Positions 47,480 through 49,307 of a DNA stretch of 64,000 nt are shown piece by piece. The DNA comes from Alkalihalobacillus pseudalcaliphilus. Its GTDB lineage: Bacteria; Bacillota; Bacilli; Bacillales; Bacillaceae_D. The stretch lies in assembly GCA_001038565.1 (NCBI GenBank), contig LFJO01000005.1, positions 612,766 through 676,765 of the forward strand. Reading direction: 5' to 3'. The notes beneath the pieces were generated by a model. That model did not search any database, had not been told where the DNA came from, and saw only the letters and a list, made by a program, of their open reading frames with translations. Each line of letters opens with the position of its first letter. The stretch's first letter is position 1. The position numbers and the translations under genes were made by a program.

Positions 47480-47584
47480 ATGCTGCTCCTTTCTTTTATT
47501 TCACTTTAAAAGTAATCAAGTAGACCTTATTCATCATACCAAGCATTGTTACGGTTTGGAAGGTGTAGAGCTGGGATTCGCTTT

Positions 47585-48631
47585 TTAGTCACAAATCCGA
47601 TAGTAACCGTTAATTTTTTTCAAGCTATTAGCAGCCAATTGGAGGATGACGGGTTGATGGATGAGTTTTCTTTCTTGTTCGATTTCAAGGATAATGAAGT
47701 GTCGACAAAGCATAATGCCATCTTGGTAAAAAGAATTCATCGGGTCAAATCCGATGATGTGACCGCTCAGTTGGATGAGTGAGCTTTTTTTGTTCCAAAA
47801 CGTTTGGAAAAGCTGTTTTCTTTCTTTGGTATGCTTATCAAAAGCATGTTGGAAAGCTGATTCATTTCGTATAGCGACTTGATTAAGGCTTTGCGGTGCA
47901 TCTTCAAATCGAGATAAGATATTCTCGTTGATATGCAAATTTTGATTATACGTCATATGAAGTTGGTTCATTGCCATGAAAAGTAGGGTCCCGGTATAAT
48001 AAGCTAACTTTCGAACGTGAAAAAAATCTTGGTCATAACGGGTAATCTTAGTTTTATAATCTTTCATTCTCGCTCTAAATTTCTGCTCGTCAAGTTGTTG
48101 TAAGGCTAGTGTACCAACAAATTCAGCACCGCCCTCAATCAGTTCTGTTTTTATTTCCTCATCTAAAAATTCACCAATAACGCTTCTTCGTTTTTGACGT
48201 AATCCAAAGAACGTAGAAAGACTCTCTTTTTTACCCTCTAATACGGAGACTAGCTCTATATTTTCGATCGCTTTCATCCTAAGATTTTCCTCACTTGCTG
48301 GGTATTGTAACAGCAATAACTCGTTGGCATAACGCTTTTCATCTCGTTCTTTTTGAAATGCATGAAACATTTCGTGAACTAAATTAGAGGCTAAAACATC
48401 GTAATCCTCATTTAAACCGACAGAAACGTCCCATATTGCAACTAAGTGATTCTCAAATTCTATGACAGTATTCGCTAAAAAACGTTGGTCTTTCTTATAA
48501 TATTGACCGTTATAGTAGACTTGGTCCTCATTATAAAGAGCAAAAGGGTATTGATGGAAATTGGACCATAATTGTGAAAAATTGATTTTTGCAAGACGAA
48601 TCTCTACTTCTTGATAAAGGATTTCTAACAT
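47585..48631 (-). CDS. Putative HExxH metalloprotease-like protein
   Basis: I do not recognise the family. The 348-residue soluble protein has HEMFH at 86-90 in ASNLVHEMFHAFQKE and ELIEGGAEF around 163-171. Together these suggest a gluzincin-type zinc site (H86, H90 and E166 or E170). There is no signal peptide or membrane segment, so it should act in the cytosol. It overlaps the upstream regulator gene by 7 bases, with GGAGG before its ATG, so the two are coupled. The link recalls other regulator/protease pairs such as ImmR/ImmA, but the regulator type differs. Confidence 0.65.
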   Translation of the reverse strand: MLEILYQEVEIRLAKINFSQLWSNFHQYPFALYNEDQVYYNGQYYKKDQRFLANTVIEFENHLVAIWDVSVGLNEDYDVLASNLVHEMFHAFQKERDEKRYANELLLLQYPASEENLRMKAIENIELVSVLEGKKESLSTFFGLRQKRRSVIGEFLDEEIKTELIEGGAEFVGTLALQQLDEQKFRARMKDYKTKITRYDQDFFHVRKLAYYTGTLLFMAMNQLHMTYNQNLHINENILSRFEDAPQSLNQVAIRNESAFQHAFDKHTKERKQLFQTFWNKKSSLIQLSGHIIGFDPMNSFYQDGIMLCRHFIILEIEQERKLIHQPVILQLAANSLKKINGYYRICD

Positions 48632-49083
48632 GTTTGATCCTCCGCGTCTTGAATGATACTTTGAATAGTAAGAATAAGCTCCTTTTGTCCAGAGAACATG
48701 ACTCGGATGATTTGTTTATTTTCTAAGTATTGATAAGAGAATTGGAATTTACCTTCTTTTGGTAATAATTGCATGACCTTCTTTTGCCAATGTGTCGCGT
48801 GTTGAATAGTTGAGCAGGGAATATCTATGACCGTGCACATTTCAGTCTCTTGTATAGAGGAGTGATTTAGGAATTCAGATATAATTTTATTTTTTTCTTG
48901 TTCGATTTTTACTTCTATATCCGAATTATGAAATAAAGCTTCTAGATTTTCCTCAGTGAAGCGCCATTGGCCTCCAATTTTTGTCCCTTTGAGAAGACCA
49001 TTTTTTAAATAGGTCCTTATAGTGCGAGAGGTTAAGCGTGTCATGGTGGCAATTTCATCAATCGTATAAAATGTTTTATTCAT
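48625..49083 (-). CDS. Excisionase/MerR-type HTH regulator
   Basis: The 152-residue protein starts with a winged-helix-like HTH (TIDEIATMTRLTSRTIRTYLKNGLLKGTKIGGQWRFTEE in sequence, about 7-46). This is the excisionase/MerR-like DNA-binding type used by small regulators. The C-terminal half (55-152) resembles nothing I can name and could sense a ligand or the partner protein. GGAGG precedes the ATG at 49083. The promoter region contains four tandem 10-bp repeats. Its stop codon overlaps the start of the metalloprotease-like gene. Confidence 0.75.
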   Translation of the reverse strand: MNKTFYTIDEIATMTRLTSRTIRTYLKNGLLKGTKIGGQWRFTEENLEALFHNSDIEVKIEQEKNKIISEFLNHSSIQETEMCTVIDIPCSTIQHATHWQKKVMQLLPKEGKFQFSYQYLENKQIIRVMFSGQKELILTIQSIIQDAEDQTC

Positions 49084-49100
49084 ATTGGAACCTCCTATTT

Positions 49101-49140
49101 ATTCATTTATTTTCATTTTATTTCATATAATTTCATATGT
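49101..49140 (-). promoter_or_regulatory. Four tandem 10-bp operator-like repeats
   Basis: TTCAT recurs at exact 10-base intervals: 49102-49106, 49112-49116, 49122-49126 and 49132-49136. On the minus strand this reads as four ATGAAnnnnn units, one per helical turn, directly before the regulator gene and inside its probable promoter. This is a likely binding array for the regulator. Confidence 0.7.
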
Positions 49141-49143
49141 AAA
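49115..49143 (-). promoter_or_regulatory. Probable promoter of the regulator-metalloprotease pair
   Basis: On the minus strand TTTACA (49143-49138) and TAAAAT (49120-49115) are 17 bases apart. The spacer and -10 lie within the 10-bp repeats, so a protein bound there would compete with RNA polymerase. Confidence 0.55.
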
Positions 49144-49263
49144 GAGAGAATTATATGTAAATAAACATAAGCTTCATTGAGGTAAAAAACTCGTACTTGT
49201 CGTATGGGGAAGCTTATGATACATTATAAAAAGAGTTGGAAATAATTAATTTCAAAGAAAGTA

Positions 49264-49292
49264 TTGTCAAATTTTTATTATCGTGATATTAT
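49264..49292 (+). promoter_or_regulatory. Sigma-A promoter of the tRNA cluster
   Basis: TTGTCA (49264-49269) and TATTAT (49287-49292) are spaced by 17 bases. The first tRNA begins 15 bases after the -10. Confidence 0.7.
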
Positions 49293-49307
49293 AGTTCTTG
49301 TCGTTAT

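Follow-up and report, generated by a model that had tools for sequence, protein, structure and literature searches.

A predicted self-controlled operon pairing a BldC-like decamer-repeat regulator with a gluzincin-like protein in Alkalihalobacillus pseudalcaliphilus

In Alkalihalobacillus pseudalcaliphilus, a short regulator gene whose own promoter carries 10-base direct repeats overlaps the gene for an HExxH protein, and repeats of the same period recur in the promoters of related regulators that adjoin quite different genes. The pair lies in a 64,000-nucleotide stretch of DNA, here called the window (contig LFJO01000005.1, positions 612,766 to 676,765). We explain it as, probably, a self-controlled and horizontally acquired two-gene operon, in which the regulator would bind the decamers head to tail and carry an added domain for sensing or assembly, and the second gene would encode a separate gluzincin. 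The repeats, their conservation and promoter register, the fold matches, the partner genes and an empty site in a congener were all computed here. The sites of this regulator family are regular enough to be read from sequence, both the decamers and the neighbouring partner genes vary from clade to clade, and a further, sensor-like domain is joined to the DNA-binding one.

The gene pair and its chromosomal setting

Both genes lie on the minus strand. The regulator gene (positions 48625–49083; 152 residues), defined by its open reading frame and a domain search, comes first and overlaps by 7 bases the HExxH gene (47585–48631; 348 residues), an open reading frame with a predicted gluzincin-like fold. 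An AGGAGG sequence resembling a ribosome-binding site, found by inspection, is located 7 bases before the regulator ATG (49091–49096, minus strand). The first-pass annotation had reported an HTH gene overlapping a 348-residue protein with HEMFH and ELIEGGAEF motifs, and this was confirmed: the motifs occupy residues 86–90 (with the glutamate at E87) and 163–171, respectively. The G+C content of the pair (35.6%) is close to that of the window (37.8%).

Gene-order comparison placed the pair in an interval of about 1.8 kb between a DUF1189 gene and tRNA-Asn (47480–49307). A congener (G001) has the same order of DUF1002, NfeD, DUF1189, tRNA-Asn-Met-Met-Ser and sodA, with a gap of about 0.2 kb between DUF1189 and tRNA-Asn and no pair in it. 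Two further genomes (G005 and G006) likewise lack the pair in the matching stretches, where other genes sit. At E 1e-15, the long-form regulator was found in 4 of 328 genomes of the window's order, one copy being broken by stops. A quick tree of the HExxH family placed the window protein on a long branch in the Clostridia/Mollicutes half, split from most Bacilli with an SH-aLRT support of 100. The pair was likely transferred as a two-gene unit. A phage origin was rejected, as the operator pattern had no match in viral contigs and none of the 17 HExxH pattern matches there was a relative; among 72,556 plasmid records, two distant HExxH relatives were found.

Decamer repeats in the window and across the regulator family

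ATGAA recurs four times in exact 10-base steps (49102–49136, minus strand), as described earlier, and these repeats, located by pattern counts and proposed as the operator, overlay the regulator's own promoter. The promoter elements, a −35-like TTTACA (49138–49143, minus strand) and, after 17 bases, a −10-like TAAAAT (49115–49120, minus strand), were assigned by consensus match only. The decamer reads ATGAAATTAT. The exact four-fold array has a single match in the window, which is also the only one in the 4.49-Mb genome. With 3 mismatches allowed, the window contains 2 overlapping matches versus 0.06 expected from 100 shuffles; with up to 2 mismatches, the genome contains four, comprising the exact array, its own overlap at a 10-base offset and two sites elsewhere with 2 mismatches.

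Relatives were collected by scanning genome contigs for the HExxH family (best 80 of 206 loci) and by profile searches with the regulator. Six of them have a promoter like that of the window: L191/L115 and L192/L119 from Defluviitaleaceae, L193/L128 from Clostridium sp. Cult3, and L227, L229 and L232 from three genomes of the same order as the Cult3 genome. In these six look-alikes the first unit lies one base past the −35 and a unit runs through the −10, and in all seven promoters of the window type the spacer is 17 bases, with the direct repeats in register. Counted from the −35 on, (A/G)TGAA units number four in the window, L229 and L232, three in L192, five in L193 and six in L227; L191 has two, plus a variant first unit. 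Every step between units of these seven promoters is 10 bases, except for a single 9-base step in each of L193 and L227. The HExxH gene is directly next to the regulator in L119, L128, L227 and L229; in L115 an ACT-domain gene (2310–2675) sits between the two, and L232 has only a 63-codon HExxH fragment within the fetched stretch. The L115 regulator also has a second ATGAA cluster farther upstream.

The period was quantified with a lag test, in which the best 20-base self-match at each lag was compared with 1000 dinucleotide shuffles. The sample comprised 45 non-redundant regulator upstream regions (48 long enough, minus the near-copies L197, L220 and L224). Fragments or other proteins (L205, L221, L222 and L223), a repeat of L193 (L228) and a locus with too short an upstream region (L226) had been excluded before the count, and loci L242–L264, which are broken or repeat genomes already counted, were left out. 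Controls were A+T-rich upstream regions of other genes at the same loci, of which 962 were reduced to 621 by dropping repeats and regions below 55% A+T, and 450 were used. Lag 10 had a mean z of 1.87 and was the best lag in 21 of the 45 family promoters, with 13 at p ≤ 0.01 and 22 at p ≤ 0.05, versus 5 and 19 of the 450 controls, respectively. Lag 20, the harmonic, was reached by 6 and 12 of 45 at these thresholds, and all other lags from 5 to 19 by 0 or 1 and by at most 5 (the maximum, at lag 15). At least 15 of 20 bases matched at lag 10 in 15/45 family promoters versus 1/450 controls (Fisher p 3e-16), although the family rows are related and these p-values therefore overstate their independence. 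The decamer wording varies among members (CAATAAAATA in L234, GGACAATCAT in L216, TTACCTATAA in L240), so a single inherited sequence does not account for the lag-10 signal. Judged by the shuffles and the 450 control promoters, neither chance nor a high A+T content accounts for the repeats.

The other 23 of the 45 promoters fell short of p ≤ 0.05 at lag 10, ten of them HExxH-linked. Five HExxH-linked members (L195, L198, L201, L202 and L203) have a free upstream region that is clearly without the signal. In four others (L194, L196, L199 and L218) an earlier reading frame on the same strand contains the upstream region or ends directly before it, and the real promoter may therefore be elsewhere. 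The L232 repeats follow four exact 10-base steps, yet its lag-10 p is 0.094; L077 has a weaker signal with different wording (p 0.037). Pairs of a short HTH gene with an HExxH gene gave no lag-10 signal in any of ten promoters. An operator common to HExxH genes without an adjacent regulator was likewise rejected, with 2 of 76 upstream regions at p ≤ 0.01 and none with 15 of 20 bases matched. The decamer repeats go with the regulator, not with the HExxH gene. Conservation of the repeats upstream of relatives, which the first-pass annotation had named beforehand as decisive, is thus found in part: the repeats are present in the six look-alikes and absent upstream of others. The comparison does support its idea of one repeat per helical turn, as the spacing recurs in family promoters and the DNA-binding domain matches BldC.

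Other arrangements were seen as well. Several ATPase- and DUF4180-linked members have repeats that end just upstream of the −35. The upstream regions of L201 and L203 both contain AAACCTGCCAAAACATGCAA, in which TGC occurs twice at a distance of 10 bases, too short a match for the lag test. In a sister group without decamers (L199, L206, L207 and L208), a common TTTCAA(A/G)TTG element, extended to CAA(A/G)TTGAAA in L206 and L207, lies about 75–91 bases before the start and is possibly a different operator type.

Predicted structures of the two proteins

The first ~50 residues of the regulator match HTH_17 (E 1.6e-11), MerR_1 (E 4.7e-8) and an excisionase model. A structure model based on a 34-sequence alignment (pLDDT 86.8, pTM 0.61) predicts an HTH_17 winged helix (residues ~5–51), a helical linker and a C-terminal beta-alpha-beta-beta-alpha domain (81–151). 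This last domain has no Pfam family, which bears out its earlier description as unrecognised, and its VIA-align matches are generic ferredoxin-like folds (Z up to 8.4) that are uninformative. A link to defence was dropped, as the MAD1 model match is confined to residues 1–50.

In a Foldseek search against the PDB, the regulator model had no match at E ≤ 0.001; the BldC–DNA complex 6ama was matched with probability 1.00 and an rmsd of 2.1 over 52 columns at 31% identity (E 0.029). VIA-align matched the BldC–whiI complex 6amk with Z 7.3 and an rmsd of 1.5 over 50 residues. By profile against solved structures, the Pukovnik Xis 4j2n was best (E 2.9e-7) and BldC reached E 0.007, with the window HTH domain alone finding BldC at E 0.27. 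The NCBIfam model HTH_BldC (NF033787) scored the window regulator at E 0.035 and 13.9 bits, below its cut-off of 77, and matched 3 of 34 relatives at E ≤ 0.001 (best 2e-5). The BldC interface residues F21, W31 and L43 correspond to T15, Y25 and I36 in the window regulator. Among 49 relatives, the W31 equivalent is Y or F in 46, the L43 equivalent V, I, L or M in 43 and the F21 equivalent L, I, F or V in 31; this last position is threonine in the window and in 14 of 18 HExxH-linked regulators. In these 18, wing residue 39, which aligns with BldC H46, is glutamine in 7/7 members with ATGAA decamers and in 0/11 others, a covariation that hints at a joint change of wing and operator type.

Searches with the HExxH protein gave no NCBIfam match and, at E ≤ 1, a single one in Pfam, to C2_nem (E 0.069). 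It was aligned in a set of 97 sequences covering 74 of the best 80 (of 206) loci, from which short, long and truncated frames were excluded; a weak match, G388, was left out of the fetched set. Ten residues are invariant in 97/97 sequences: H86, E87, H90, Q93, E123, E159, E163, E166, G167 and R207. The model built from the 97 sequences (pLDDT 94.6, pTM 0.92) has a putative gluzincin-like fold at residues 1–246 and a C-terminal beta domain at 281–348. It places HEMFH in a helix (77–95) and E159, E163 and E166 in a later one (154–180); the first-pass annotation had staked its reading in advance on HEMFH lying inside a helix, and this confident model, with its gluzincin-like arrangement, confirms it. 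NEGFA is a motif of M1 peptidases, and by the resemblance of EGxA to it E166 would be the third zinc ligand.

Foldseek gave no PDB match for the HExxH model at E ≤ 0.001 (best E 0.22, to unrelated chains), and the family profile recovered no peptidase by sequence among solved structures. The first VIA-align rows were the M1 enzymes IRAP (Z 8.9, rmsd 4.2, 172 aligned) and LTA4H (Z 8.7, rmsd 3.9, 165 aligned), followed by a putative lipoprotein, yeast TFIID, ERAP2, clostridial collagenases, an M61 aminopeptidase and MATCAP; Z values of 7–9 for this model are middling. Because most of the leading rows come from one superfamily and the motif agrees, the modelled protein is likely a gluzincin, and it would then bind zinc and act as a peptidase. 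Its metallopeptidase-like family is widespread among Firmicutes and is represented in neither Pfam nor NCBIfam.

Partner genes, mode of action and known systems

Four kinds of partner gene lie downstream of long-form regulators: HExxH genes, HMA-domain P-type ATPases (for heavy metals, probably copper), Abhydrolase_1 alpha/beta-hydrolases and DUF4180 genes (Pfam was run for one of the ATPases, four of the hydrolases and two of the DUF4180 proteins). An HExxH gene is present in the fetched stretch for 18 of 49 regulators and for none of the other 31; because HExxH loci had led to 13 of these regulators in the first place, the true HExxH-linked share is lower. Conversely, the best 80 of 206 HExxH loci have a long-form regulator immediately upstream in 11 cases and nearby in two, and a short HTH in two, with some contigs ending close by. 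Each gene therefore often occurs without the other. The long-form regulators upstream of HExxH genes come from Clostridia and Bacilli. Across 40 HExxH loci of the window's order, the long form is found in the window and L077 and a 76-residue HTH in ten. This 76-residue HTH_17 protein, encoded directly upstream of the HExxH gene in one genus (L069, L070, L071, L074, L075, L076, L080, L085, L098 and L101), forms a separate pairing.

In a quick tree of the 49 regulators, an ATPase group of eight falls on one side of a branch (SH-aLRT 97), and the HExxH label changes five times. The ATPase-linked regulators L210, L213, L214, L215, L216, L224, L225 and L226 have 3–5 cysteines each, including a pair with a constant spacing of 17 residues where the C-terminal domain begins; ATPase-linked regulators are possibly an undescribed copper-regulator type. 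Three members (L106, L231 and L234) have a DUF4180 gene after the regulator and decamers just upstream of the −35 (L106 and L234 were in the Pfam run), and L106 has an alpha/beta-hydrolase gene in addition. Gene order is reversed in L218, in which the HExxH gene comes first and overlaps the regulator.

For this system, binding, repression, sensing and transfer are what we infer. Copies of the regulator would line up head to tail on one face of the DNA, each occupying a single 10-base repeat. Such a coat would span the −35 and −10 and exclude RNA polymerase, and the operon would repress itself. At smeA–sffA, BldC protects four tracts one helical turn apart; its binding is cooperative, and it has been proposed to restrict RNA polymerase by coating the DNA (PMC5859096, partial text). 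Since the window repeats lie over the core promoter, a BldC-like binding mode would give autorepression, which by this analogy fits their position. The C-terminal ferredoxin-like domain would likely be a sensor or assembly module; being common to sister clades with different partners and outputs, it is a natural sensor candidate. The second gene would provide a cytosolic gluzincin-type zinc peptidase with a substrate of its own.

Two alternatives concern how the regulator uses its promoter. A classical MerR-type regulator would sit as a symmetric dimer on a promoter palindrome, a reading suggested by the MerR_1 and MerR domain matches, by a short CATATG palindrome across the junction of the −35 and the first repeat and by an imperfect 17-base inverted pair near the repeats; by its sequence the window promoter may thus hold a symmetric site, and these inverted repeats make the head-to-tail model slightly less favoured and the dimer slightly more. 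However, the direct repeats dominate and stay in register, the spacer is 17 bases in all seven window-type promoters, whereas classical MerR promoters have spacers of 19–20 bases (PMC5859096, partial text), and the model has no long dimerisation helix, so that we regard a MerR dimer as very unlikely. It is also quite unlikely that the regulator activates from the decamers: in several members linked to ATPase or DUF4180 genes the repeats stop shortly before the −35, a position permitting activation, but in the window and the six look-alikes they cover the spacer between −35 and −10 and the start region.

The other alternatives concern the HExxH protein. In a switch resembling ImmR/ImmA it would cleave the regulator, perhaps in the C-terminal domain, and lift repression, as ImmA cleaves ImmR (PMC10233336, partial text). 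The overlapping genes and the strong active-site signature favour this, as does a long-form regulator immediately upstream in those 11 loci and near in two more. Against it, no such regulator lies beside most of the best 80 of 206 HExxH loci, the protein has no ImmA/IrrE family match, and other regulators that share the C-terminal domain and carry decamers adjoin heavy-metal ATPases, hydrolases and DUF4180 genes instead. We hold this switch to be unlikely. The earlier reading had combined an operator with a protease-like partner relieving repression or acting on the regulator; comparison strengthened the operator half and left the protease half without support, given a long-form regulator at 13 of those 80 loci and an HExxH gene near 18/49 regulators. 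A protease role may nonetheless exist within HExxH-linked members, where a related scenario, improbable to much the same degree, has the gluzincin cutting the C-terminal domain or free protomers so that the decamer filament collapses, with the same chassis refitted in sister clades. If true, this would be a protease–filament switch unrelated to ImmA/IrrE, on a filament chassis that also serves heavy-metal, hydrolase and other outputs. A toxin–antitoxin-like module with the HExxH protein as toxin seems extremely unlikely: a small DNA-binding protein does come first with the second gene overlapping, and a zinc metalloproteinase/HTH-Xre pair has reportedly been studied as a toxin–antitoxin system (PMC10538038), but most surveyed HExxH relatives have no regulator, which is unexpected for a toxin that depends on an antitoxin.

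The self-repressing operon with a separate gluzincin can be set beside four known systems; the literature matches listed, from a search covering few subscription journals, contained no description of the regulator–HExxH pairing or of these decamers. With gluzincins (M1, M9 and M61), the leading VIA-align matches, the window protein shares the HExxH helix and conserved glutamates in a later helix, but it belongs to no Pfam or NCBIfam family and its family profile reaches no solved peptidase. ImmR/ImmA of ICEBs1 and TnSmu1 has the same order of an HTH gene followed by a gene for an HExxH protein (PMC10233336, partial text), whereas the window regulator matches HTH_17 and MerR models best, with no HTH_3 at E ≤ 1, its partner has no ImmA/IrrE match and its sister regulators have other partners. 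Phage and ICE excisionases such as the Pukovnik Xis (4j2n) and RdfS share the HTH_17 domain, and RdfS assembles into head-to-tail filaments and is a repressor of its own promoter (PMC11963761, partial text); unlike theirs, the neighbours of the window pair are ordinary chromosomal genes and tRNAs. BldC of Streptomyces shares the winged helix, with an aromatic residue at W31 and a hydrophobic one at L43 or their equivalents, and direct repeats that are rich in A+T, vary in number and are spaced by about one helical turn. It has 68 residues and no effector domain, 9-base sites and many targets (PMC5859096, partial text), whereas the window regulator has 152 residues with the C-terminal domain (81–151) added, and 10-base repeats whose exact array is single-copy at its own promoter. 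What is new here is thus a predicted BldC-like mode of decamer binding, joined to an added domain and serving different partners.
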